Origin: an uncultured Granulosicoccaceae bacterium
Lineage (GTDB): Bacteria > Pseudomonadota > Gammaproteobacteria > Granulosicoccales > Granulosicoccaceae
Assembly: GCA_937923565.1 (NCBI GenBank)
Contig: CALDTX010000054.1
Coordinates: 1-39,147 of the forward strand
Direction: 5' to 3'
Length of the DNA stretch: 39,147 nucleotides
Below, piece by piece: positions 1 through 23,671 of this stretch (position 1 is its first letter; every line of letters starts with the position of its first letter). Under the pieces are notes generated by a model. It was given only the letters and a program-made list of their open reading frames with translations. It had not been told where the DNA came from and did no database searches. The position numbers and the translations under genes were made by a program.

Positions 1-2
1 GG

Positions 3-137
3 ATAAACCACTACCGGTATTTTGGTCTAGATGTTCCTGACGGGGAGCCAGGTTCATCCCCAGGAGATGTAAGCCTTGACAATAGAATAGAGGTATACGA
101 AATCCACGGGCCAATATTTGGACTAGAAGGCGCATAA
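3..137 (+). CDS. C-terminal end of a cassette gene, unknown function (partial)
   Basis: An open frame runs from the left edge to TAA at 135-137 and encodes the last 44 residues of a protein, ending FGLEGA. The rest lies outside the window. The stop codon sits inside the attC starting at 132, the arrangement seen for other cassettes here. The residues are mixed hydrophilic with several Gly, Pro and Asp and no membrane segment. I do not recognise the family. Confidence 0.6.
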   Translation: MNHYRYFGLDVPDGEPGSSPGDVSLDNRIEVYEIHGPIFGLEGA

Positions 138-249
138 CAAGGCGCTGCAGAGCCGACAGTGTATGCGGTGATTACCTTGCGGTCTCACTGCTTTCGACTT
201 TACCGCAAGGCAAACCCCGCATACACTGCGGCTGAGTGCGGTGTTATAC
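132..249 (+). other. attC site, 118 bp, intact
   Basis: The site starts with GCATAAC (132-138) and ends with GTTATAC (243-249). The arms pair strongly: AGCCGACAGTGTATGCGG on the left matches the complement of CCGCATACACTGCGGCT on the right except for one extra A. Such an extrahelical base is a hallmark of attC bottom-strand folding. A second inner stem pairs ACCTTGCGGT with ACCGCAAGG. This is the best attC in the window. Confidence 0.85.
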
Positions 250-273
250 CCAGATAGTTACAGCGAGAACCTA

Positions 274-1155
274 ATGGCTACATTACTTTTATTATGTCTA
301 GCGCTAGTTGTTGTGTTTATTGTGTATAGATTATTCTTTAGTGAGCAACCTTCCCAAGCGGGCCCGGAAGAAATTGAGAAAGAGCTGAGTTTGGTAGATG
401 AGTTGGTTCAGAAAAATCTTTTGGAGAGCATTAGAGTAATCCCAGATACAGCCGTACCAGCTGGACCGAAATCTAGCAAGTTTGGTGGTTATCCTATTTG
501 GTCGAACGAGCTAGACTATCCAGCAGACCAAAAAAACAAACCACTACGTTTGTTAGCGCAATTCAATTTATCCGAGTTGCCGGAAAACGAATTTCTACCT
601 AGGTGTGGAATACTTCAGTTTTTTATCTCTGATCAAGGAAGTCTAGGGTTGGAGTTTGGAAGTAAAAACCGGTCCTTAAAAAACATAATCGAAGCACCGA
701 CTGAATATCGTGTTTTTTATCATAAAAACATAGATGAATCGTTTAAGGACATGAAAAGCCAATACCCAATAGGGACAGAAACGGTATTTCCTTTTGAAGG
801 TGAGTATTCTTTAAGTTTTGTCTCGGAAAGTAGTGAGCCAGGCCCCAAAGATTACAGGTTTGATGAGATTGTAAGAGATACAGTTGAGCTCCATGATGAA
901 ACAATTGATGCTTTATTTGAAAAATATGACTCAAGCGGTTGCAAACTTGGAGGGTATGCTCATTTTACACAGGATGATCCGAGGCCAATGATGAAAAACG
1001 ACCAATGGTTGTTGCTGTTTCAGATGGATACTGTAACTGCCAATGGTGTACATATAATGTGGGAAGATGCAGGCGTAGCAAATTTCTTTATTCGCCCAAA
1101 AGATCTAGAGAAAGAGTGTTTCTCGCAGACCTGGTTTGAATGGGATTGTTATTGA
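274..1155 (+). CDS. YwqG/DUF1963-family protein with N-terminal membrane anchor
   Basis: The predicted product has 293 residues. A hydrophobic segment at about residues 3-22 looks like an N-terminal membrane anchor. The remaining soluble part resembles the YwqG (DUF1963) family: a KFGGYPIW motif early, a GGYAHFTQDDPR motif late, then a LLLFQMDT strand and MWEDAGVANFFI near the end, finishing in WFEWDC. No biochemical function is settled for the family. The ATG at 274 is preferred over the upstream GTG at 241 because the latter lies inside the attC. It is the first complete cassette gene and is followed by a 118-bp attC. The call rests on motif recall rather than a search. Confidence 0.75.
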   Translation: MATLLLLCLALVVVFIVYRLFFSEQPSQAGPEEIEKELSLVDELVQKNLLESIRVIPDTAVPAGPKSSKFGGYPIWSNELDYPADQKNKPLRLLAQFNLSELPENEFLPRCGILQFFISDQGSLGLEFGSKNRSLKNIIEAPTEYRVFYHKNIDESFKDMKSQYPIGTETVFPFEGEYSLSFVSESSEPGPKDYRFDEIVRDTVELHDETIDALFEKYDSSGCKLGGYAHFTQDDPRPMMKNDQWLLLFQMDTVTANGVHIMWEDAGVANFFIRPKDLEKECFSQTWFEWDCY

Positions 1156-1169
1156 ATATTTTAAAAAAG

Positions 1170-1287
1170 GTATAACAGGGCAGTGAAGTCGGACAATTTA
1201 CGCGGTGTTTGTCTTCTGGTGTCACTGTCTGTCCACTGTGCCACAAGCCAAACACCGCATTAATTGCCGCTGACTGCAGCGTTATCC
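1170..1287 (+). other. attC site, 118 bp, intact
   Basis: It runs from GTATAAC (1170-1176) to GTTATCC (1281-1287) and has the same length as the site at 132. The left arm CGGACAATTTACGCGGTGTTTG pairs with the right arm read backwards (CGGCAATTAATGCGGTGTTTG) apart from an extrahelical A and minor mismatches. Confidence 0.85.
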
Positions 1288-1290
1288 AAA

Positions 1291-1767
1291 ATGAAATTGA
1301 AACCGAAAATAGTATACGGAGATTTATTGTCTCAGGATGTTGAAGTGATCGTAAACGCATGGAATAGAAATATTATTCCGTGGTGGTTACTTCTGCCCCA
1401 AGGGGTATCTGGAGCAATAAAGAAAAAGGGTGGTACAAAGCCCTTTAAGGAATTATCAAAACTCGGTGCCATTCCATTGGGCGGTGCAAGAATTACTGTG
1501 CCGGGTAAACTGAACTATAAGGCAATAATACATGTTGCAGGAATTAATATGTTCTGGTTTGCCACTGAGAAATCTGTAACGGAAAGTGTTATCAATGCAA
1601 TGAGGCTGGTCAATGAAAAAGGATTTGAAAGCGTTGCCTTTCCGTTAATTGGTTCTGGTTCAGGAAATCGAGGAGAGGAATGGTCTTTGGGATTGATGAA
1701 GAAAGCTTTCGAAACTATAGAAAGCGACGCTCGGGTTACAATAGTCAGGTTCAAGAGAGGTGGATAA
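1291..1767 (+). CDS. Macro-domain protein (ADP-ribose binding type)
   Basis: The product is a single-domain protein of 158 residues with a macro-domain layout. It has an early strand followed by VIVNAWN, a glycine-rich GGAR turn, an IIHVAGI strand, and a PLIGSGSGNRG loop where macro domains bind the diphosphate of ADP-ribose. Macro domains bind or hydrolyse ADP-ribose derivatives on proteins, nucleic acids or metabolites. Which of these applies cannot be read from the sequence. The ATG at 1291 is chosen because the longer frame (from 1264) starts inside the attC. Its TAA (1765-1767) overlaps the next attC. Macro domains also occur in NAD-linked toxin-antitoxin and defence systems, so a defence role is possible but unproven. 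Confidence 0.8.
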   Translation: MKLKPKIVYGDLLSQDVEVIVNAWNRNIIPWWLLLPQGVSGAIKKKGGTKPFKELSKLGAIPLGGARITVPGKLNYKAIIHVAGINMFWFATEKSVTESVINAMRLVNEKGFESVAFPLIGSGSGNRGEEWSLGLMKKAFETIESDARVTIVRFKRGG

Positions 1768-1817
1768 CAAGGCAAGCCAGCGGACTCGCTACGCTCCGGC
1801 TGCTCGCGGCGTTATTT
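1762..1817 (+). other. attC site, short (56 bp)
   Basis: GGATAAC (1762-1768) and GTTATTT (1811-1817) enclose a compact inverted repeat with AAGCCAGCGGA on the left and TCCGGCT on the right. It is much shorter than the 118-bp family, as in mobile-integron or Xanthomonas/Pseudomonas-type sites. This cassette may therefore have been acquired from another integron. Confidence 0.7.
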
Positions 1818-1903
1818 TGGTCGTTCAGCTTAATGATTAGATTGACGATTGAATTTATGTAGTCTAATTCACTGCAAGGTCGGCATGGCTCAACCAATGA
1901 ATT

Positions 1904-2455
1904 ATGAAGGAATTTAAAGTGTCATCCACTAATTATTTTCTTATTATTTCAGTTGCATTGTCGCTTCTGTCTTGCGGTGGTAGTTCCGAAGAGGGGCCAG
2001 AATGTGGACCAAACTCTTCATGCTTACCGGAAAAATTATCTATAGACAAGCGTTGGGTGCTGACTTCCTACAGTTCTGATGCTGGGGATCCAGCACCTGC
2101 CGTCGAAGCTGTACCCTTTAATTTTGCGTTTAACATCACTGATCAAGGGCGACGCACGGGCTTTTATGGGTTCGATGGCTGCAACGTGTTTTCCAGTGAC
2201 GGTGTGATGTTAGAAGGTACTACCATCACGCCGGTAAACGGTGTGAATACTGATGGACGTAGCTGCGGTGCTTTACAGTTCGCAGACTATCTAATGCAAT
2301 TCGATCATTTCTACTCTGTTATCTCAGACACATTTTCCTATGACGAAATGAATGACCAATTAGTACTTAGTTCGTCGACAGGAAGCTCGCTGATGTTTGG
2401 CCTTTGTATTGCGATTGATTCTGATTCCCTTGATTCTATTTGCGAGCCCATATAA
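1904..2455 (+). CDS. META-domain lipoprotein
   Basis: The product has 183 residues. A signal peptide ends in a lipobox (LLSC, lipidated Cys about residue 24), so the mature protein should be a lipoprotein in the cell envelope. The body has features of the META/HslJ domain: an RWVLTSY strand near residue 50 and GFDGCNVF about 45 residues later. Several Cys residues (GCN, RSCG, near the C-terminus) may form disulfides. META domains occur in HslJ, linked to novobiocin resistance, and in heat-induced envelope proteins, but no enzymatic role is known. It begins 86 bp after the previous attC with only a weak ribosome-binding site, and no attC follows within 80 bp of its stop. Confidence 0.7.
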   Translation: MKEFKVSSTNYFLIISVALSLLSCGGSSEEGPECGPNSSCLPEKLSIDKRWVLTSYSSDAGDPAPAVEAVPFNFAFNITDQGRRTGFYGFDGCNVFSSDGVMLEGTTITPVNGVNTDGRSCGALQFADYLMQFDHFYSVISDTFSYDEMNDQLVLSSSTGSSLMFGLCIAIDSDSLDSICEPI

Positions 2456-2544
2456 GTCAACGATACAGCGTGCTGCAATTTTTTCCTAAGGCAACCATGG
2501 GCGCTTTGTGTGCGCTTAAGCTACCATTAGTGTAAGAGTTTAAT

Positions 2545-2670
2545 GCGCAACAAAATAGCCAAACAATTAACCTTGCCAACGAGCTGGCTCGGTTCTACAC
2601 TGCGGTGCTCTTTTTGTGCAGCTAGCACAAACAAGCCCCTCCGTTCCGACCTTTTTTTGCGGCGTTATAT
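2545..2670 (+). other. Possible degenerate attC (about 126 bp)
   Basis: GCGCAAC (2545-2551) resembles the start of the site at 5061, and GCGGCGTTATAT ends at 2670 like a good attC right end. Arm pairing is poor apart from short inner stems (GTGCT with AGCAC). The right end lies 17 bp before the next gene start, which fits a cassette boundary. Confidence 0.45.
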
Positions 2671-2687
2671 GCTGAATCATTGCAATT

Positions 2688-2978
2688 ATGTCTTACACTG
2701 AACCTGATCCACGTGTTGTCGAATTATTATACGATTCGGCAGAGTTGTTTATCCCAGTTATTGTCGGATACGCTTTTGCGTATTGCGGTGCAATTGGGTT
2801 CCTTTGGAAGGAACAAGGGGAGAGGTTTGATTCAAAGTTCTATATTTAATCAGCAATAAGTGTTGTTGTGCTGATTGGTGCTTTGGGACTTTGGTGTGGG
2901 TGTCATTTGTTAGCGGGCAAATATTGTCATCGAATTATGGAGGCGCTTGGACGTCTTGAGTTGCACCGAAAAACCTAA
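2688..2978 (+). pseudogene. Small two-helix membrane protein gene broken by one in-frame stop
   Basis: From ATG at 2688 the frame encodes 53 residues to TAA at 2847-2849. The same frame then stays open for 42 more codons and ends at TAA 2976-2978, inside the next attC. That end position is exactly where intact cassette genes here stop, so the full-length reading is probably the ancestral gene (96 codons plus stop). A hydrophobic helix lies at about residues 20-40 before the stop. A second one (about 55-77) lies after it, beginning AISVVVLIGALGLW. A single base change to TAA would explain the break. I do not recognise the family. A sequencing error is the alternative. Confidence 0.6.
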
Positions 2979-3046
2979 CAGGGCAAATTAGCAAGGCCAC
3001 TTCGTGCCTGGACCTGCTGAACAGGTCACTGTTTGCCGTGCTATAT
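2973..3046 (+). other. attC site, 74 bp, altered crossover end
   Basis: ACCTAAC (2973-2979) starts the site and contains the stop codon of the upstream gene. GGGCAAA pairs with TTTGCC across the element, with inner hairpins GACCTG/CAGGTC and GGC/GCC. The right end reads GCTATAT where GTTATAT is expected. That substitution of the first T after the crossover G may lower recombination. Confidence 0.6.
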
Positions 3047-3090
3047 AAAAACAAGTAATGCGATATGTACAAAATAGAGAAAGATCTATC

Positions 3091-3372
3091 ATGGTTGAAT
3101 TTGTAAATTGCAACGAGCACGGTAAAAACGAAGGTTGCATGATTTGCCAACACCTAGTCGCTCAAAAAGACCTTTGTTATGCGAAACTTCTAGTTGATCC
3201 ACACGATGATGATTTTGAAACAGCCATGTGCGAGGCATGTGAGACTCTATTGCTAGACGAGCAAGAATGGTCTGACAAACTTAATGACTTTGCAGAATGG
3301 AAGTTGTTTTGTCGCAAGTGTTACGAGCGAATTTTACAATATCATAAGCTGGTTGCCGAAGGTGGCATGTGA
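3091..3372 (+). CDS. Small cysteine-rich, probably zinc-binding protein
   Basis: The product has 93 residues. Ten potential metal ligands are spaced in pairs: C7 and H10, C16 and C19 with H21, C29, C47 and C50, C74 and C77. The three CxxC pairs (CMIC, CEAC, CRKC) are the pattern of structural zinc sites. The rest is acidic and helical, with no signal peptide or membrane segment. The function is unknown. The start at 3091 is preferred because the Cys pattern begins directly after it. An in-frame ATG at 3058 would add 11 residues. It follows the attC ending at 3046. No clear attC separates it from the CYTH gene, so the two may share a cassette. Confidence 0.65.
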   Translation: MVEFVNCNEHGKNEGCMICQHLVAQKDLCYAKLLVDPHDDDFETAMCEACETLLLDEQEWSDKLNDFAEWKLFCRKCYERILQYHKLVAEGGM

Positions 3373-3463
3373 GCGAAGCATAATATCTCCACAAGGAAAA
3401 TCACTATGGGTAGCATGAGTTATAATATGGAAGTTCTGTGCTTTTCAGAAAGCTTGGAGATAG

Positions 3464-3985
3464 ATGATGTTAGCAGGCTACTTGGGTAATTTTTCCCGGT
3501 TTGAAATAGAAAGAAAGTTTGTGCTAAAAGAATTGCCTGCTTCTCTTCCTGATAATTATGTTGATATAACAGACAAATATTTATGTAACTCTAGTCTGAG
3601 ATTAAGAATAGAAACCTCTCCTTTGGGGAAGATAATAGGTAGAAAACTAACAAAAAAAGATAAAGCCCCGAATAAAGGACCTGAGATCAGCATCATGACT
3701 TCATTGTATTTATCAGAAGATGATCTTACTGCTCTTGGTGCTATTGAAGGGTCTTCAATTAATAAGAGGCGATATATATACGAAGATGATGAATGCAGAA
3801 TTGTATATGATGAATTTATAAATAATTTGGAAGGATTATTAATGGCAGAAATTGAATTCAGAGATAGCGAGTCGTGCTCTAAGTTCAAGCCAAAAGACTC
3901 AAGCTGGAAAGAGGTAACAGGAAATCCAGAGTATTCAGGAGGTAATTTAGCCTTTAGAATAGGTGGCTTAGCATCAAATATTTAG
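3464..3985 (+). CDS. CYTH-domain protein (triphosphate-metabolising family)
   Basis: The product has 173 residues. The N-terminus carries the CYTH signature ExExK as FEIERKF (E14, E16, K18). RLRIE and KLTKKDK follow as the basic tunnel strands, then KRRYIY, and MAEIEF near residue 127. CYTH proteins form a beta tunnel that binds organic or inorganic triphosphates with Mg. Members include thiamine triphosphatase, tripolyphosphatase and class IV adenylate cyclase. The sequence does not decide between these. A GGAG motif lies about 5 bases before ATG 3464, and a second ATG follows directly. It is followed by an attC-like element starting at 3987. Confidence 0.75.
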   Translation: MMLAGYLGNFSRFEIERKFVLKELPASLPDNYVDITDKYLCNSSLRLRIETSPLGKIIGRKLTKKDKAPNKGPEISIMTSLYLSEDDLTALGAIEGSSINKRRYIYEDDECRIVYDEFINNLEGLLMAEIEFRDSESCSKFKPKDSSWKEVTGNPEYSGGNLAFRIGGLASNI

Positions 3986-3986
3986 T

Positions 3987-4070
3987 ACATAACAAGTACA
4001 TGCGTCAGACCAACAAAAGTGGGGCTTCTGTGTCAACTTACTTTTACAGCCGGCTGTTGTAGGGTTTATG
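3987..4070 (+). other. Probable attC, weakly conserved right end
   Basis: ACATAACAAG at the left is a typical attC start. The right end is unclear; GTTTATG at 4064-4070 is the best candidate, 12 bp before the next gene. Arm pairing is limited, so the site is likely decayed. Confidence 0.4.
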
Positions 4071-4081
4071 TTTAATCATCT

Positions 4082-4585
4082 ATGACACCAGATATTTATA
4101 AAATTGAATTAATTGGACGTGGAAGCCTATCGGTTATGGCTAAGCCTGTTTCTGGGGAGTGGATAGATGATGAGTTTTCAGGTATTGCGGTTTGGGGTAT
4201 TGATAGAATTGTGTCTTTATTGGAGCGGCATGAAGAAATTGAAGTAGGCCTTAGCGAAGAAAAGCGATACGCTGAGAAATACGGTATTGATTATATTTCT
4301 TTCCCCATAAAAGATAGAGGGCTTCCAGAATCCATTCAAGAGTATTTAGCATTTACTAAACGCCTCTATCATGAAGCCGCTGGCGGGTTAAATACAGTAA
4401 TACATTGTAGAGCCGGAATCGGTCGTACCGGTATTATTGCAGCAGGTATACTTTTACATTGCGGTTTCGAGCCCCATGAGGCCATTGAGCATATATCGAG
4501 GCATCGTGGTGTTGCAGTCCCTGATACAGAGGAGCAAATTGAGTGGGTTGTTCGAAGCTATGCCCAACACATAGCAAATTGCTAA
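4082..4585 (+). CDS. Dual-specificity / tyrosine phosphatase family protein
   Basis: The product has 167 residues. It contains the Cys-phosphatase P-loop HCRAGIGRTG, with nucleophile C109 and phosphate-binding R115. The likely general acid is D78 in the PIKDRG loop, about 31 residues upstream as in dual-specificity phosphatases. The catalytic set is complete, so activity is expected. The substrate (phosphoprotein, phosphoinositide or nucleotide) cannot be told from the sequence. There is no signal peptide, so it is probably cytoplasmic. It starts 12 bp after a putative attC end. Confidence 0.85.
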   Translation: MTPDIYKIELIGRGSLSVMAKPVSGEWIDDEFSGIAVWGIDRIVSLLERHEEIEVGLSEEKRYAEKYGIDYISFPIKDRGLPESIQEYLAFTKRLYHEAAGGLNTVIHCRAGIGRTGIIAAGILLHCGFEPHEAIEHISRHRGVAVPDTEEQIEWVVRSYAQHIANC

Positions 4586-4676
4586 AGCTGACACAAATCG
4601 CTACGTTCCTTTTTGTGTATTTCGCTGGCGTTTCATTTTTGCACAAAAACACTCTGCGCAATATGTGCTGTTAAGC
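4581..4676 (+). other. Possible attC (about 96 bp)
   Basis: The right end GTTAAGC (4670-4676) fits the GTTRRRY rule exactly and lies 21 bp before the next gene. The left end GCTAAAG (4581-4587) is weak. ACACAAA and TTTGTGT form an inner stem. Confidence 0.45.
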
Positions 4677-4697
4677 AAGGCGTGATTCGTAAAAAGT

Positions 4698-4970
4698 ATG
4701 TCGAATAGAACTCTTGTCAAAAGAATGGAAGCCTCCCTATCGAGCTACCTGCATAAAGAAATTAGCCGCAATGAACTAATTTCGTCAGTAGAGGAGAATG
4801 GGCGTGCGCTAGAAATGATGCCATATTCCCTTATAAGAGAAATCGATGAAATAGAACATCAACTGACAGTATCACAATGGGCAAAAGAAGATGAATTCCT
4901 GCCGGAAGAGGAGCGGGCAATAGAGCAACTTCGCCAATGGTTTCAGAAAATACCAAAAGAACCCAAATAG
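4698..4970 (+). CDS. Small cytoplasmic protein of unknown function (cassette gene)
   Basis: The product has 90 residues and is highly charged and helical, with no Cys, signal peptide or membrane segment. The pattern of long amphipathic helices rich in Glu, including a DEIEHQL stretch and an EEERAIEQLRQW C-terminal helix, resembles small orphan or immunity-type proteins. No family is recognised. It lies between a probable attC (ending 4676) and an attC starting at 5061. Confidence 0.6.
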   Translation: MSNRTLVKRMEASLSSYLHKEISRNELISSVEENGRALEMMPYSLIREIDEIEHQLTVSQWAKEDEFLPEEERAIEQLRQWFQKIPKEPK

Positions 4971-5060
4971 CGTACAAACGTGAAGGCTTGGGTGTAGCTA
5001 ATATGCAAACATTTGTTTTCGCTATAGAATACCTATTATTCAAGTAGTATTATCCTAACC

Positions 5061-5178
5061 GCGCAACAAGCCCGTGTAGCGCGACAATTTACGAGCTGCT
5101 TCTTTTGCTGTGTCGCTGTCGCGCCACTTTTGGGCAAAACGCTCGGCCTATAGATTTCACCTGACCGGGGCGTTAGAA
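5061..5178 (+). other. attC site, 118 bp
   Basis: GCGCAAC (5061-5067) and GTTAGAA (5172-5178) bound an element of the same length as the sites at 132 and 1170. An inner stem pairs GCGCGACA with TGTCGCGC. A GACAATTTACG block in the left arm is shared with the site at 1170. Outer arm pairing is weaker than in the two intact sites. Confidence 0.6.
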
Positions 5179-5221
5179 TTTGCAATAGAGAAAACAATAC
5201 CAATACTGGAAAAATATATAA

Positions 5222-5683
5222 ATGACAGAAAAAAAAGCTAGTGGTAAATTTTCAAAAATATTGGACGAGCTATATGAGAATAGTCCTATTTTCCGGTATT
5301 CAGTTGTATACATTGCTGGTTTAGTTATTTTCTTTATCGGATTTCTTGAGTTTGATTTGTGCTATCCGTTAAATATAGATTGCTCATCACTACCAGACTA
5401 TTTTCTCTTAAAGTCAACATTTGTTTTTGTAACATTTTTGTATGTTTTGTATTGGTTTATCGGTAATTCGATTGTTAGAGCACTTTTCTGGTTTTTGTTC
5501 ACTTTTGCATTAGCGCTTTTGATTCTTGTTTACTACGTAGGTGGTGTGTGGTTCGGTATACTTTTTAAAGCAAAAATAATTACACATGTGCTGTTAGTTA
5601 TCAGTTTTCTCATAGCAGTGATTGTGGCTGTATTTACTTATCAGATGGATGAGGATGAATTCAAAGAAGCATCGGCGGAGTAA
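5222..5683 (+). CDS. Four-helix integral membrane protein, unknown function
   Basis: The product has 153 residues. Predicted membrane helices lie at about 25-43, 62-80, 85-107 and 119-139, with a charged N-terminus (KKASGKF) and an acidic tail (DEDEFKEASAE). A Cys pair in the first loop (CYPLNIDC) could form a disulfide. No family or catalytic motif is recognised. It follows the attC ending at 5178. The attC downstream of it is decayed, so it may no longer move independently of the next gene. Confidence 0.65.
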   Translation: MTEKKASGKFSKILDELYENSPIFRYSVVYIAGLVIFFIGFLEFDLCYPLNIDCSSLPDYFLLKSTFVFVTFLYVLYWFIGNSIVRALFWFLFTFALALLILVYYVGGVWFGILFKAKIITHVLLVISFLIAVIVAVFTYQMDEDEFKEASAE

Positions 5684-5685
5684 TG

Positions 5686-5803
5686 GCTAAAAAAGTCAAT
5701 TCAATCAAACAATTTGCGTGGTATTTGTCTTGTGGCGTCATTGTCGTTCCAATTTACTTCAAGTCTAGTACCGCGCAAGTTGCTGCTGATTGAAGTGGCA
5801 TGC
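5686..5803 (+). other. Decayed attC remnant (118 bp)
   Basis: Aligned with the site at 1170, this stretch matches in CAATTT.CG.GGT.TTTGTCTT.TGG.GTCA and in the GC.GCTGA motif near the right end, and is also 118 bp. Both recombination ends are lost: GCTAAAA replaces the left core and GGCATGC replaces the right GTTAnnn core. The stem TCAATCA.../...TGATTGA is still recognisable. Confidence 0.6.
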
Positions 5804-5858
5804 AAAACTTAGAAAAAATAATTTTTAGCATCACCAAATATGCAAAAAGGAAATTTAA

Positions 5859-6569
5859 ATGATAGTTTTAGTTGTTGGTGCAAGCGGAGCAACCGGTCAG
5901 CATGTTGTCAATCAATTGCTCAGCCAAGGGGTTGAGGTGCGAGCTATAATTCGCTCACTAGATTCATTACCGGATAACCCTAAATTACATAAGATAAAAG
6001 CCTCTGTACATGACCTTACAAGCTCAGAAATGGCCACACACACAAAAGACTGTTCAGCTGTAGTTTCTTGTCTCGGTCATAATCTTACATTCAAAGGTTT
6101 GTTCGGTAAACCACGCTTACTTGTTACAGATACACTCCAATGTATATGTAACGCTATCCTATCTAACAAAAATGAGGGTGCAGTTAAAGTTATCCTTATG
6201 AACACAACGGGAAACTGCAATCTAGATATACCTGAAAAACCGCCTTTAAGTCAGCGTATTGTTATTGGAATACTTAGAATACTGTTGCCTCCACATGCAG
6301 ATAATGAAAAAGCCGCAAACTATTTGCGTACTAAAATCGGTAAAAATAATAAAGCTATTGAGTGGGTAGCTGTTCGTCCCGATGCTTTAGTTAATGAAGA
6401 CGAAGTAACTGACTATAATATACATACATCCCCTATTCGAAATGCAATATTTGATTCTGGCGCTACCAGCAGAATCAATGTTGGAAATTTTATGGCTGAG
6501 CTGATTTTAAGCGAAAGTCTATGGCAGAAATGGAAAGGCCAGATGCCTGTAATTTATAATAATGCATAA
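5859..6569 (+). CDS. NAD(P)-binding SDR/NmrA-like protein
   Basis: The product has 236 residues. The N-terminus has a Rossmann nucleotide-binding motif, VVGASGATGQHV (GxxGxxG, residues 7-13). A VVSCLGH strand and the VAVRPDALV motif typical of atypical (NmrA-like, SDR_a5-type) short-chain dehydrogenases follow. These bind NAD(P)H and act either as oxidoreductases or as redox-sensing regulators. The classical YxxxK pair is not evident, so catalysis is uncertain. A good ribosome-binding site (AAGGA) lies about 8 bases before the ATG. The TAA (6567-6569) lies in the following attC. Confidence 0.75.
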   Translation: MIVLVVGASGATGQHVVNQLLSQGVEVRAIIRSLDSLPDNPKLHKIKASVHDLTSSEMATHTKDCSAVVSCLGHNLTFKGLFGKPRLLVTDTLQCICNAILSNKNEGAVKVILMNTTGNCNLDIPEKPPLSQRIVIGILRILLPPHADNEKAANYLRTKIGKNNKAIEWVAVRPDALVNEDEVTDYNIHTSPIRNAIFDSGATSRINVGNFMAELILSESLWQKWKGQMPVIYNNA

Positions 6570-6635
6570 CAAGTTGTTTAATCGAAAAAATTTCTTGCTC
6601 ACGTTCGCATTTCTCTGCTGGGCAAGGCGTTATAT
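6564..6635 (+). other. attC site, 72 bp, last recognisable in the array
   Basis: GCATAAC (6564-6570) and GTTATAT (6629-6635) are good core ends, and CTTGC pairs with GCAAG inside. No further clear attC is seen to the right, so this is taken as the distal end of the array. Confidence 0.65.
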
Positions 6636-6649
6636 ACTCACACATTTAG

Positions 6650-7267
6650 TTATAAGAATATTTGATCGCTAAGTAATAGCAACGCGATTACGATCATGAA
6701 CACGCCTGAAATTCTACTTATCACTCTAGCTACATCTGGACGAGATTGAAGTAGTATTTGTGCTCCAAATCCCACAAGAAGGTAAATGACAGCGGAACTC
6801 ATTATATGAACTAATCCTAAGACCATGATTTGAGTTGATATCGACCATGATGCTGAAGCGTCAGTAAATTGCGGCAACAAAGCGAGATATAACAAAAACA
6901 CTTTTGGATTTAACCCGCTGATGAATACCCCTTTCGTTAACCAATTTACCCATGAGCCAGAAGTTTTATCATTATTTATACTTGGTGTTGATGGCTTAAT
7001 TATTAAATTTCCTCCCATCCAGAGAAGATATAACGCACCAAATATAACGATTATTATTAGTGATAAAGGGTGGCTTGTTATTAACGCGCCTATACCTGCC
7101 GCGACAACTATTGTTGCAGTAAGATGCCCTGTTAGCATACCAAATACAGCGGGTACGACTACTCTTCCTCTTGTTCCCGACGCGATTGCGTAAGCCCAAT
7201 CAACACCGGGTGTAATCACAAACAGAAACGAGACTACCCAAAAAGCTCCTATGATACTCAATGTCAT
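6650..7267 (-). CDS. LysE/RhtB-family amino-acid exporter
   Basis: The product has 205 residues and about six membrane helices. The N-terminal VVSFLFVITPGVDWAYAI carries the TPG motif of LysE/RhtB exporters, and the GLNPKVFLLYLALLPQF segment matches the conserved central GxxNPK motif. Members export lysine, homoserine, threonine or related compounds; the substrate is not determinable here. A GAGGTG ribosome-binding site lies 5 bases before the ATG. It is divergent from an Lrp/AsnC regulator 136 bp away, a common pairing in which the regulator controls the exporter. The stop is only 14 bp from the end of the last attC. Confidence 0.85.
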   Translation of the reverse strand: MTLSIIGAFWVVSFLFVITPGVDWAYAIASGTRGRVVVPAVFGMLTGHLTATIVVAAGIGALITSHPLSLIIIVIFGALYLLWMGGNLIIKPSTPSINNDKTSGSWVNWLTKGVFISGLNPKVFLLYLALLPQFTDASASWSISTQIMVLGLVHIMSSAVIYLLVGFGAQILLQSRPDVARVISRISGVFMIVIALLLLSDQIFL

Positions 7268-7403: not shown

Positions 7404-7859
7404 ATGGATAGAATTGATAAAAATATTCTTGCTGAGCTGCAGATCAATGGAAGATTATCTTTCACGGAGCTGGCTGAGAAAGTGGGCTTGAGTCTTTCGC
7501 CTTGTCATCGACGAGTACGCGCTTTAGAGGAATCTGGTGCGATCAAGGGTTATAAAGCGATGTTAGAACCGAGCGCTATTGGGCTTGGTTTTTCCGCTAT
7601 CGTGTTCGTGACGATCAAAGAAGGGGATAAAAAAGCGGTTCAGAAATTTGAAAACGCTATTGTTGATATACCTCAGATTGTTCAAGCCCAAAGGCTGTTT
7701 GGTGATCCAGACTTTATACTCCATATTGTCGCAGCCGATCTCGCTGAATACCAACGTTTCTACGATGAAAAATTAACAGATTTACCTGGGGTTCAACGAT
7801 TAATTTCGACGATTGTAATGAAGAACGTAGTTCCTGAACGGCCTTTTCCTTTCCTGTGA
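7404..7859 (+). CDS. Lrp/AsnC-family transcription regulator
   Basis: The product has 151 residues. Residues 1-50 form the AsnC-type helix-turn-helix (DKNILAELQ, LAEKVGLS, CHRRVRALE). A ligand-binding RAM domain follows from about 65 to 145, with GDPDFILHI as its central strand. Lrp/AsnC proteins sense amino acids. The divergent LysE-type exporter is the obvious target, with the shared 136-bp gap as the control region. No operator was identified in that gap. Confidence 0.9.
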   Translation: MDRIDKNILAELQINGRLSFTELAEKVGLSLSPCHRRVRALEESGAIKGYKAMLEPSAIGLGFSAIVFVTIKEGDKKAVQKFENAIVDIPQIVQAQRLFGDPDFILHIVAADLAEYQRFYDEKLTDLPGVQRLISTIVMKNVVPERPFPFL

Positions 7860-7923
7860 CAAGGATTTCGTTGATAAACCACAGGACGAGTTAGTAGAGT
7901 TATCCGCCTAATTTTTGATACAT

Positions 7924-9192
7924 CTAATTGTCTGATTCATTGAACACAATAGTAAATTTACACCCGTGCCCATCCGATACCAATTTAACCACCGCATCAT
8001 GCTGATCACAAATAGACTTAACAATCGATAACCCCAACCCAAAGCCACCCGAATCTCTGCTCCTACTACTTTCTACCCGATAAAACGGTTCGAAAATCCG
8101 GTCCTGATGTATAGCTGCTATGCCGGGCCCATCATCTACAACATTAATTTCAATACCGTGTTCCAAGTTTGAAGCTTCAATCGTCACCTTGCTGTTGGCG
8201 TACTTCATCGCATTAATCGCCAAGTTTGATAAAGCCCTAACCATCAGTCGTTTATCCACCAGAACTTCCCATTCGGTTGGTGCCGGAATAATAGATAAGC
8301 GAATGTTGGCATTGGTCGCTTGAACCGGTTCGGCAAGTTCACTCAGCAGTGAGTTTACCGAATGGGTTTCAAGTGCAAGCTTGTTACCCATACTTCTGAG
8401 TCGCGAATAGCGCAGGGTTTCACGCACCAGAGCGTCCAGCTCAATGGCCGCATTGTTGGCTTCTTCAAACAGTGCTTTTTGTTCATCGCCGGTTCTCTCC
8501 ATCGCCATCTCATTAGCAAATTGAAGTCGCGCCAGTGGGTTTCTAAATTCGTGCGCCACACTTGCCAATAAATCTTTATGATCGTCGATAGCATCCTTTT
8601 GATCGATCTGTAGCTTATTAATGTGTTCCTTAGCTTTGTATAGCGCTTTTATTGCAGCTGATATAGGATCGTCTGCCTTTTCAGCATCGTTGAGTAAGGC
8701 AGATTCAACGGTTGCTGTATCCAGGTTTCTTAATTGATGTTGCAGTATGAGCTTGCTAATCCATAAGCTGGCCAATAGTGCAATGCACTGTAGAAAGTAG
8801 GTGAGTAGTTCGCTATCGCTAAACCAGCCAGTAGCTGGTGTTTCGAGCGCTACTTCGTACATGCCGCCGTTATCAAGCGTTAACACATACAGTTCTGCAT
8901 CGCTTAAAGTTTGTAATTCCTGATTTGTGCTTATATCATTACTTTTATCACCGCTGATGTCGTCGCTGTTCAACAAACTAATAACAGCGTTATATTCCTG
9001 CTCCAAAGCCACCACGTATTCAGTGCTATTGCTTTGATTTAACTCGAATTCAATATCTTCGAGGGCGAGCTCATGTGTAACTTCCCAATCGTCATCGAAA
9101 ATAAACACATCGTTTATCAGTAAACCTAATAGCCAGGCGGTGGTACAAAGAGCCAGCCCGATAGCGGTGCACAGTAAATAGCTCTTCTTCAT
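7924..9192 (-). CDS. Sensor histidine kinase (RstB-like two-component sensor)
   Basis: The product has 422 residues. Membrane helices at about 5-27 and 128-150 flank a periplasmic sensor region rich in acidic residues. The HisKA helix carries the phospho-acceptor in SVAHEFRNPL (H214). The ATPase domain has an N box (NLAINAMKYA), a G1 box (DDGPGIA) and a G2 box (GGFGLGLSI). It should autophosphorylate and pass phosphate to the OmpR-type regulator encoded just upstream; the genes overlap by 4 bp. The signal is unknown. The linker between TM2 and HisKA is short, so a full HAMP domain is doubtful. Confidence 0.92.
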   Translation of the reverse strand: MKKSYLLCTAIGLALCTTAWLLGLLINDVFIFDDDWEVTHELALEDIEFELNQSNSTEYVVALEQEYNAVISLLNSDDISGDKSNDISTNQELQTLSDAELYVLTLDNGGMYEVALETPATGWFSDSELLTYFLQCIALLASLWISKLILQHQLRNLDTATVESALLNDAEKADDPISAAIKALYKAKEHINKLQIDQKDAIDDHKDLLASVAHEFRNPLARLQFANEMAMERTGDEQKALFEEANNAAIELDALVRETLRYSRLRSMGNKLALETHSVNSLLSELAEPVQATNANIRLSIIPAPTEWEVLVDKRLMVRALSNLAINAMKYANSKVTIEASNLEHGIEINVVDDGPGIAAIHQDRIFEPFYRVESSRSRDSGGFGLGLSIVKSICDQHDAVVKLVSDGHGCKFTIVFNESDN

Positions 9193-10407: not shown

Positions 10408-12261
10408 TTAATGGCTTGATTTTTTGCGGTTCAATCCAAATACACGCCTTCTTACCCAAACAGCAGGAATCAGGCCCAGCGCGAACCAAAGATCACTGGA
10501 ACCTGCGCCACCGTTGCTATCACCCATGGCCAAATTAGCCGCATTGGCCCCAGTTGTCATGGCGTTGGCAGGCTCTGTAACGGTTGGTTTTGTTGCGCTC
10601 TGCTCAGTTTCTTGGGCAGATGCAACGCTGGTTCTGAAGTTGTTCAGACGCACACTAACGGTGTTTTTACGGCGAGTAGTATTTTCGAAAACCCAGCTAA
10701 CCCGACTGTTTGCTGGCACGTTGATGCTGGCCTGCTGCCATTCGTCGGTGTTGCCATTAAGTTCGTAAACTGCATCGCCGTCTATATAAACCACGCAAGA
10801 TGCTGAGCCCATGAAATATTCGAATTCCAATAACATATCGTAGCCTTGGTCAAACTCGGTACTCAGGTAAAGTTCGTTGTCGTACTCCAACTCTGCCATT
10901 AAAGCATCTGTTTGACTGTCATTGTCTTCGGTGCTTTGTTGCCATGCCGAATTATCATCGGTTTGAAAATCGGTATCGGTTTCGGAGAACCAGTCGCCAA
11001 TATCTAATTGAGCTAAGGCAACACCCTCTAAAGGGCTGCTCAATTGCGATGTTGCCGAACCAGCGCTTGCGTTAATGAGCAGTTCGCTACCCAATTCACC
11101 TTCGGATAAGGGTTGCCATGCGATATCGATGTAGCAAGACTCATCCATCTGCAATGGTGCGTAGGTGCAGTCTTCGTAGTCGATCGATAGGGTAGTATCT
11201 GGTATCGAAATGTCAGTAATTTCAACGGCTGAGTCTGATGAATTGCTTACTGTGAATCCGGCTATGCCCATTGTGCCCACTTCTACTTCGTCGAAGCTGA
11301 AGTCTTCGATGATTTCAACAAAGCTGTTATTGCCTATGGGTGTTGTATCGGTGTCGGTTGATTCGTCACTATTGTCAGAGCTGTCAGAGCTGTCAGAGCT
11401 GTCAGAGTTATCCGTGCCTGGCTGAACAAAATTGGTATTGTCCACCACAACAATGTTCTCACCAGAGGTATCGCTGTTGGCATTTGCATCCGCTAAGAAA
11501 GCTTCAAACTCACTAACCTTGGTATAAACGCCGGGGTGTGATGCTGAGCCGCATTCATCACCAAAGCTAACAATGCCCACTTGTATAGCACCGTTTGCTG
11601 TGCGTGCGATTAACGGCCCGCCGCTATCACCCTGACAAGAGTCCTTTTTACCCTGTGGAACACCGGCGCAAATTTGCGTGTTTTCTAAACCGCCATAAGC
11701 AATGCTGCATTGATTGAAATTCGACACTTCTACTGTTACGTTGTGTAGCTGCTCTGGAAAGTCTTCACCGCTGGTAGAGCGATTTCCCCATCCGGCCACA
11801 GATACGGGTACACCTTCTGCGAAGGTTGCGGGGTTATTGTTCGATGCGATGGCAATTGCCGGTGCTGATGTAGGTGAGTTAAGTTCGAGTAAAGCGATAT
11901 CGTTGACCACCGACTGACTGTCGTAGTTGGGGTGCATAATTATCTGCTTAACGTTTATGCGTTGTGCTGAGCCGGTTTGCGATAAGTTGTCGGTACCGGT
12001 AATAACATCAAGGTTGTTAGCCGTTTCATTTTCAAGACAATGTGCGGCGGTGAGAATCCAGGTAGGCGATATAACCGATGCGCCGCAAAAAGCATTTCTG
12101 GCATCGCTGCCACGGTTTACCAATGCCGCCATGTAGGGGTATTGCGCTAAGGTTGTTTTTTCTCCACCAACAATACGTAAATTTGATGCGTGGCTGCTAT
12201 TACTTAGTGCCATCAGTGCTAAGGCTGCAATGAGTGGTGGTGTTAAGTGTCTGCACTTCAT
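10408..12261 (-). CDS. Secreted trypsin-like serine protease with GlyGly-CTERM tail
   Basis: The product has 617 residues. A signal peptide covers about residues 1-25, and the trypsin domain begins at the activation site RIVGG (I30). The triad is complete: H74 (TAAHC), D121 (NDIALL) and S213 (GDSGGP). D207 is at the S1-pocket position, so cleavage after Lys/Arg is expected. A Ser/Asp repeat linker lies near 285-305, then a Hydin/choice-of-anchor-like beta domain (about 315-415) and a beta-rich domain to about 545. The tail has GG (584-585), a hydrophobic segment (591-603) and RRR, the GlyGly-CTERM signal. Vibrio VesB-type proteases have this layout; rhombosortase processes the tail and the type II system secretes the enzyme. 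No rhombosortase gene is in this window. Confidence 0.9.
   Translation of the reverse strand: MKCRHLTPPLIAALALMALSNSSHASNLRIVGGEKTTLAQYPYMAALVNRGSDARNAFCGASVISPTWILTAAHCLENETANNLDVITGTDNLSQTGSAQRINVKQIIMHPNYDSQSVVNDIALLELNSPTSAPAIAIASNNNPATFAEGVPVSVAGWGNRSTSGEDFPEQLHNVTVEVSNFNQCSIAYGGLENTQICAGVPQGKKDSCQGDSGGPLIARTANGAIQVGIVSFGDECGSASHPGVYTKVSEFEAFLADANANSDTSGENIVVVDNTNFVQPGTDNSDSSDSSDSSDNSDESTDTDTTPIGNNSFVEIIEDFSFDEVEVGTMGIAGFTVSNSSDSAVEITDISIPDTTLSIDYEDCTYAPLQMDESCYIDIAWQPLSEGELGSELLINASAGSATSQLSSPLEGVALAQLDIGDWFSETDTDFQTDDNSAWQQSTEDNDSQTDALMAELEYDNELYLSTEFDQGYDMLLEFEYFMGSASCVVYIDGDAVYELNGNTDEWQQASINVPANSRVSWVFENTTRRKNTVSVRLNNFRTSVASAQETEQSATKPTVTEPANAMTTGANAANLAMGDSNGGAGSSDLWFALGLIPAVWVRRRVFGLNRKKSSH
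11374..11409 (-). repeat. 9-bp tandem repeat encoding the Ser-Asp linker
   Basis: Four copies of GTCAGAGCT (the last ends TT) encode repeated Ser-Asp-Ser on the - strand in the protease linker. Being 9 bp, unit gain or loss keeps the frame. Confidence 0.8.
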
Positions 12262-20796: not shown

Positions 20797-20880
20797 GCTA
20801 TACCGTTGGTACCACGTTATACCGTTGGTACCGTGTTATACCGTTGGTACCGTGTTATGCCGTTGGTACCGTGTTATGCC
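20797..20880. repeat. 19-bp tandem repeat, about 4.4 copies
   Basis: Units of GTTATACCGTTGGTACCGT start at 20797, 20816, 20835 and 20854, with a partial fifth (GTTATGCC). Copies two and three are identical. Each carries the 6-bp palindrome GGTACC. It lies 42 bp after the GST stop and before the convergent SnoaL-like gene, so it is intergenic. Confidence 0.9.
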
Positions 20881-22270: not shown

Positions 22271-22336
22271 TTTGCTTAGCTCTTGCTTAGCTCTTGCTTA
22301 GCTCTTGCTTAGCTTTCGCTTAGCTCTTGCTCAGTT
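22271..22336. repeat. 11-bp tandem repeat overlapping the tmm stop codon
   Basis: Six tandem copies of CTTGCTTAGCT run from 22271 to 22336. Copies 2-4 are exact and copies 1, 5 and 6 carry one to three changes. The last copy covers the TGA stop of the leftward monooxygenase (22331-22333). Confidence 0.9.
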
Positions 22337-23671
22337 CTTCAAATAGCTCTCTTTAGAATCATCCAGTGCATCTTTCCAAGGTGTGTGATGCGCCGGCGCC
22401 ATCGTGCCAGTAATAACTGATTTATAGCTGTTATTTCTAAATGTCATGATGTTTTCTTTCTTATGTTTTTTCCATTGAAAGAAGGCTTCGTTTGCACCGT
22501 CAATGTCGAAACTGGGGTAGTCAGTTTCGGCAATCAGCTCTCTGACATAGTCGCCTTGGTAGCGTATGCAACCATAGTCGTCTTCAATCGCATCTTCCTC
22601 TGCAACCCGTTTATCGACATCAGCCGCTCTTGCAGTAGCATCGGGTACGCTGATTTTGTCCATAATGATATCCCGTGCATACCAAGCTTGGGCATCGAAC
22701 ATGTTGAAGGTGTACCACTGATCCTGCATACCCAGATAAAAAAGTTGCGGGTTAGCGACAAACACTAAACCTTTGTATAAGTCGGCAGATGCAAGACGGT
22801 TTGCAGTCACCAGATTCAGTTCGGCGTCCATAAACGGGAAGTGATGTTTGTAACCGGTGCACAGAATGATCGCATCGATTTCTTTTTCGGTTCCATCAAT
22901 AAATGTACAGGTGTTCCCATCTACCGATTTTAACAGCGGCACTTCTTGCCAGTTGTCTGGCCAGTTGTAACCCATGGGTGCTGTTCGGTGGCTGACTGTG
23001 ACGCTTTTGCAGCCGTACTTCCAGCATTGCGATCCGATATCTTCAGCTGAGTAGCTGGTACCAATAATCAGTATGTTTTTGTCTTTGAATTCCACGGCAT
23101 CGCGGAAATCATGCGCATGCAGCACGCGACCATTAAATTTATCGAGCCCGTCGAATTCAGGCACATTGGGTGTTGAGAAATGCCCGCTTGCCACAACAAC
23201 ATTGTCGAACTGTTCGCTGTACGTGTTGTCGTTAGGAAGATCTTTTACGGTTACCGTGAATTGCTTGCTGCTCTCATCGTAGCTAACTTGCCGAACCGTT
23301 GTATTAAAGCGAATCCAGTCACGCACGTTGGCTTTGAGCACACGGCCTTCTATGTAATCGAACAGCACCGCGCGAGGCGGGTAGCTTGCTATCTGTTTGC
23401 CAAAATGTTCTTCGAATGAGTAGTCGGCAAATTCTAAGCCTTCTTTGGGTCCGTTAGACCAAAGGTAGCGATACATCGAGCCATGTACCGGTTCGCCATA
23501 TTCATCCAGCCCTGTTCGCCACGTGTAGTTCCAAAGGCCACCCCAATTGGATTGCTTTTCGAAGCAAACAATTTCTGGAATTTCTTCACCTTTTTGTTGG
23601 GCAGATTGAAATGCACGAAGTTGTGCAAGCCCTGAAGGTCCGGCGCCAATGACAGCGACTCGTTTACCCAT
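22331..23671 (-). CDS. tmm: Trimethylamine monooxygenase (flavin-containing monooxygenase)
   Basis: The product has 446 residues, the usual length for bacterial Tmm. The FAD motif [16 protein letters not shown] is at the N-terminus. [20 protein letters not shown] and [19 protein letters not shown] follow as recalled for marine Tmm enzymes. The FMO signature [11 protein letters not shown], the NADPH motif [10 protein letters not shown] and [10 protein letters not shown] are present, and the C-terminus ends [12 protein letters not shown] like known members. It oxidises trimethylamine to its N-oxide using NADPH and O2, giving C and N use of methylated amines or protection by the N-oxide. A strong AAGGAG lies 6 bases before the ATG. 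A Rieske oxygenase gene lies just upstream on the same strand. Confidence 0.9.

Follow-up and report, generated by a model that had tools for sequence, protein, structure and literature searches.

Positions 1-6635 of the window, as we call the whole 39,147-base contig analysed here (C54), very probably form the distal and oldest part of a sedentary chromosomal integron carried by a Granulosicoccus-group gammaproteobacterium. The segment holds ten gene cassettes, the first truncated by the contig edge, with every gene on the + strand and each cassette ending in an attC site or an attC remnant (Table 1). A chromosomal integron cassette array had been proposed in a sequence-only reading of this DNA, and the proposal was borne out by hits of an attC covariance model, by homology of the sites with one another and across the genus, and by a homologous cassette gene that follows an attC in another genome. 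A weak point of the identification is that four of the ten sites are recognized mainly by position and motif. The kind of system is already known; its mild interest lies in the erosion of the distal sites and in the integron wealth of the genus.

Array layout and cassette genes

The contig belongs to a 3.2-Mb, 258-contig metagenome-assembled genome (MAG) with an estimated completeness of 74.8%. This MAG was placed in one genus with G023, a complete 7.78-Mb genome, and we infer that the genus is Granulosicoccus. The array starts at base 1, so that the contig break falls inside it, and its genes (1-6569) comprise nine intact + strand open reading frames of 90-304 amino acids, one partial frame and one interrupted frame, in agreement with the earlier count of at least nine + strand genes. 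Cassettes are in one orientation and mostly single-gene; one carries two genes (3058-3372 and 3464-3985), between which no attC was found. Stop codons fall within the first bases of attC, in the R'' box, at 132-138, 1762-1768, 2973-2979 and 6564-6570 (TAAC). The earlier description of attC-like separators with embedded stops holds for the sites themselves and for these four stops, but it overlooked the degradation of most right-hand sites.

Table 1 Cassettes, attC sites and right border of the array, in order along the contig
Feature	Position	Strand	Evidence or remarks
Cassette 1 gene, 3' end	1-137	+	Open frame to TAA at 135-137, inside the following attC; remainder off the contig
attC 1, intact, 118 nt, R'' GCATAAC, R' GTTATAC	132-249	+	36.2 bits; fold z -6.3; homologues in relatives
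Cassette 2: DUF1963 (YwqG-like), N-terminal membrane segment	274-1155	+	Pfam PF09234, E 4.7e-57
attC 2, intact, R'' GTATAAC, R' GTTATCC	1170-1287	+	30.0 bits; fold z -4.8; 90% identity to attC-like site in same-genus G025
Cassette 3: macro domain (ADP-ribose binding/hydrolase type)	1291-1767	+	PF01661, E 1.6e-18; 2dx6 and 1spv related
attC 3, short (56 nt), AAC/GTT cores intact	1762-1817	+	17.0 bits; similarity to attC 1, z 5.7
Cassette 4: META-like lipoprotein	1904-2455	+	PF03724, E 2.6e-4, under the curated cut-off
attC 4, second sequence family, R'' core AGC for AAC, R' GTTATAT intact	2553-2669	+	76-87% nucleotide identity, nine copies, two genomes
Cassette 5: small membrane protein gene, in-frame TAA at 2847-2849	2688-2977	+	Translation
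attC 5 remnant, R'' CCTAAC, R' core GCT for GTT	2973-3044	+	Position, stop in R'', fold z -2.4; missed by the model
Cassette 6, gene a: 104-aa Cys-rich protein	3058-3372	+	No credible Pfam, NCBIfam or PADLOC match
Cassette 6, gene b: CYTH-like, EIERK motif	3464-3985	+	PDB 3typ, 2fbl, E 0.002-0.004; no Pfam match
attC 6 remnant, begins with TAAC, R' poor (GTTTATG), stem lacking	3986-4070	+	Position and R'' alone; folding no better than shuffles
Cassette 7: dual-specificity/tyrosine phosphatase, HCRAGIGRT active-site motif	4082-4585	+	PF22785, PF22784, PF00102 over cut-off
attC 7 remnant, R' GTTAAGC intact, R'' core AGC	4561-4676	+	Similarity to attC 3 (z 4.7) and attC 8 (z 5.1)
Cassette 8: 90-aa protein	4698-4970	+	Open reading frame; no credible family (Pfam, NCBIfam, PADLOC)
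attC 8, eroded, cores AAC and GTT retained, little outer stem left	5063-5176	+	Homologous to attC 2 (z 11.9); site on G028 contig 151, 74% over 130 nt
Cassette 9: 153-aa multi-pass membrane protein	5222-5683	+	Open reading frame; no family match (Pfam, PADLOC)
attC 9 remnant, AAA / GGC in place of the two core triplets, terminal hairpin preserved	5684-5802	+	Homologous to attC 2 (z 12.2); fold z -3.3; site on G025 contig 320, 73%
Cassette 10: NAD(P)-binding (NAD_binding_10) protein	5859-6569	+	PF13460, E 1.8e-22
attC 10, final site, outer ATAAC/GTTAT pair preserved, weak inner stem	6564-6635	+	8.8 bits, by itself not above chance; position, stop in R''
LysE exporter, right border	6650-7267	-	PF01810
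Lrp/AsnC regulator, divergent from LysE	7404-7859	+	PF01037, PF13404

The cassette contents had been characterized as mostly unknown or regulatory-type proteins. This is only partly right, since we found recognizable enzyme or binding domains in about half of them and no classical regulator. The phosphatase of cassette 7 retains an intact HCxxxxxR motif. As a candidate defence system the cassettes were rejected, PADLOC returning just a weak DarG-like match (E 0.0016) to the macro domain. The membrane protein gene of cassette 5, which is interrupted here, has a homologue on contig 89 of G014 (locus L145, 1140-1660; 80% nucleotide identity over 212 nt) that is uninterrupted at the position of the stop and starts right after an attC; G014 itself has no IntI match over the cut-off used below.

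To the right of the array the same contig carries 32 kb of ordinary chromosomal metabolic and regulatory genes. This setting, the absence of resistance genes among the cassettes and the resemblance of the attC sites to those of the same genus all argue against a mobile integron carried by a plasmid or transposon, a reading for which we found no supporting point and which we regard as exceedingly improbable.

attC sites scored by an independent model

We built an attC covariance model from 19 sites in the arrays of other genomes, mostly beside intI and none from the window, with the R''/R' and L''/L' pairing written in as seen in the 19-site alignment. Training sites were gathered with an R-box-plus-folding scan and oriented by intI; that scan was rejected as evidence for sites in its own right, given the many false sites it produced within genes, and it served just to gather the training set. 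The covariance-model search, suggested with the earlier reading, placed 132-249, 1170-1287 and 1762-1817 above the rest of the window, with E values over the whole window of 3e-7, 1e-5 and 0.04, respectively (0.007 for the third over 1-6720). The best match outside the array reached 10.8 bits, and two weak matches fell within it, at 6564-6635 (Table 1) and 2565-2670 (6 bits). The R'', L'', L' and R' boxes of attC are thus recognized over background by the independent model in three sites and by homology in others.

In relatives, ten sites of the 118-nt family to which the first two belong gave model scores from 17 to 44 bits, and six of them reached at least 34; the lower scores of 132-249 and 1170-1287 relative to the training families therefore do not signify decay. 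The sites at 5063 and 5684, homologous to this family, fell below the reporting limit of the model. Elsewhere in the host assembly the sole other attC-like match (contig 119, 24 bits) sits inside a coding region and was discarded. Counts of YAACARG over the whole window were not above chance; on the + strand of the array the motif occurs eight times against two expected, a comparison made post hoc.

Compared with shuffled sequence, single-strand folding was more stable for 132-249, 1170-1287, 5682-5804 and 2969-3045 (z values in Table 1). The six remaining sites folded no better than shuffles.

Homology of the sites within the array and across the genus

In pairwise comparisons, scored against dinucleotide-preserving shuffles, the sites at 132, 1170, 5061 and 5684 form one homologous family (z 6.0 to 20.6, except 5061 against 5684 at z 3.0), and those at 1762, 4561 and 5061 are connected with one another. 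When the array was used as a query against 57 genomes, the matches were mostly attC-like segments, and five of its sites resemble attC-like repeats elsewhere in the group at 67-90% nucleotide identity. The segments 132-249 and 1170-1287 are matched by sites in G007, G019, G022 and G027, 2512-2670 is matched by nine copies in G004 and G016, and 5065-5189 by a site in G028. The sites are therefore alike both inside the array and inside the genus, a pattern typical of sedentary integrons (PMC8352920).

Judged from sequence, the family of 2512-2670 is a second attC family of the genus. Most of its members pair ATAAC with GTTAT, whereas the copy in the window has AGC instead of AAC. Copies of this family (loci L148 and L149, with repeats on the - strand) stay conserved beyond the attC boxes, over about 40 bases on the upstream side and 15 on the downstream side, a feature that simple cassette exchange does not explain. 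These conserved flanks are the one point in favour of the idea that the repeats are another dispersed element of the REP or MITE type, lying after genes, and not attC. That idea is very unlikely, as the repeats keep a single orientation and have stops within the site start, their R''/L''/L'/R' structure is recognized by a model trained on attC mostly beside intI, and the copies sit in arrays of small cassette-like genes alongside classical attC. Taking the repeats as attC, we grade two of the ten sites as certain, four as well supported (1762, 2553, 5065 and 5687) and four as probable remnants (2973, 3986, 4561 and 6564).

Erosion of the sites toward the right

The three leftmost sites keep both AAC and GTT, together with a stem or, in the short site, a fair model score. 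Among the other seven, 2553 and 4561 have AGC for AAC, 2973 has GCT for GTT and 5684 has lost both triplets; both triplets survive at 3986 and 6564, though no convincing stem accompanies them, and also at 5063, where most of the outer stem is gone. IntI cleavage occurs at the GTT box, and at least 2973 and 5684 should therefore be dead. An old right part of the array fits these core losses and the interrupted gene of cassette 5, on a sample of ten sites; that small sample and the last site (6564-6635), which retains its AAC and GTT cores, count against an erosion trend.

These features are consistent with a sequence of events in which an integron integrase, encoded or once encoded to the left, would insert circular cassettes one by one, presumably at an attI on that side, and older cassettes would be pushed rightward until they abutted the native LysE-Lrp pair. 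The left three sites would still be recombinable, and the right-hand cassettes would have been locked in place by the loss of AAC/GTT cores or of stems.

The missing integrase

The host assembly, which is broken at the array, yielded neither a complete nor a partial intI, and no attI is visible; an attI and a cassette promoter beside the first cassette would lie beyond the left contig edge. A search of the assembly with the integron integrase profile TIGR02249 returned just two Xer-like proteins, whose segments scored 53-76 bits where the cut-off is 265. Among 26 same-genus relatives, 16 have an IntI over the cut-off, and attC sites occur in 22 of 27 genomes, the host included. Assemblies of this genus tend to break at the array, a behaviour described for draft genomes generally (PMC9024848): 13 of the 22 intI genes in relatives have a contig end no more than 1.1 kb away on their attI side, against 2 expected, and none has one that near on the other side. 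These breaks, and the same-genus genomes that have attC sites but no IntI over the cut-off, limit the meaning of the absent intI. The proposal that the integrase lies off the left edge keeps its basis in the gene orientation, which is right, and in the contig end inside the array; against it stand the failure to find intI in an assembly about three-quarters complete and the relatives with attC sites but no IntI over the cut-off, and we give an integrase on the left flank a roughly even chance.

The competing reading is a CALIN, an attC cluster that has permanently lost its integrase and is decaying as a whole, with only more remnants to the left. The host assembly without intI speaks for this, as do the degradation of most right-hand sites and the broken gene of cassette 5. 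There are also precedents in the genus, as G023 has 15 attC hits and G019, 97% complete, has 8, neither with an IntI match over the cut-off. The intact appearance of the left three sites, the missing 25% of the genome and the known breaks at attI in the genus weigh on the other side, and we consider a CALIN a serious possibility, if somewhat short of an even one. Draft assemblies are known to inflate CALIN counts (IntegronFinder 2 paper, PMC9024848). Two clusters of attC hits in G023, at about 7.00 and 7.62 Mb, have no IntI over the cut-off and are probable integrase-less arrays.

Relation to known integrons

Read as the distal part of a sedentary integron, the array resembles the chromosomal integrons of Vibrio and Xanthomonas in its one-orientation, mostly single-gene cassettes, its chromosomal neighbourhood, the similarity of attC within array and genus, and its mostly uncharacterized genes. 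It differs from them in that no integrase is seen, it is short, with ten cassettes visible, and many distal sites are eroded. On its contig the array also falls under the IntegronFinder definition of a CALIN (at least two attC without an integrase), and degraded sites are a further likeness, but the contig edge inside the array makes the missing integrase uninformative here. Related arrays occur in the same genus on G002 contig 18, G016 contig 56, G007 contig 111 and G019 contig 112. Those of G007 and G019 share the 118-nt attC family of the window; those of G002 and G016 differ, lying beside intI and using attC of another family, 101-102 nt long and mostly high-scoring.

The array adds one more to a genus with attC in most of its genomes. 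Granulosicoccus is kelp-associated (PMC9238374), and in a survey of integrons in seaweed biofilms only about 10% of attC could be assigned to a source taxon (PMC10963911). Seaweed-associated Granulosicoccus may be a large integron reservoir outside the published taxon-specific attC models, and the array may show a passage from a mobile left to a fossil right, with cassettes made permanent by attC core mutation; we hold this combined proposal tentatively, at just under even confidence. A Granulosicoccus attC model could test the genus as a missing source of seaweed-biofilm attC, and the eroded distal sites lend themselves to study of how cassettes, once captured, turn into fixed genes.

The right border and the rest of the contig

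The array ends at a divergent LysE-Lrp pair. Of 30 related loci, spread from Pseudomonas to Kocuria, 29 show the same arrangement; the pair is an ordinary gene pair adjoining the integron and no cassette. An attC downstream of the Lrp gene, at about 7855-7907, would have made LysE-Lrp a cassette; this candidate was rejected, as the model has no match in 7800-7960 and the pair is widespread among bacteria. The 26 same-genus genomes searched besides the host nonetheless yielded no close relative of this LysE. In Propionivibrio limicola a solitary attC (locus L095, 4541-4599; 31 bits) lies near a LysE-Lrp pair, after a gene for a 296-aa protein and beside a toxin-antitoxin-like pair; we take this single case among 24 loci to be a coincidence.

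Rfam models at gathering thresholds gave no match in the window. Outside the array, a secreted trypsin-like protease is encoded at 10408-12261, with a Gly-rich, hydrophobic and Arg-rich C-terminal tail resembling a GlyGly-CTERM sorting signal. Two tandem arrays were also seen. The first, at 20799-20877, is intergenic, with a 19-bp unit (TATACCGTTGGTACCGTGT) repeated 4.2 times at 95% matches. The second, at 22272-22339, has 6.2 copies of an 11-bp unit and reaches the 3' end of a flavin monooxygenase-like gene (22331-23671, - strand).
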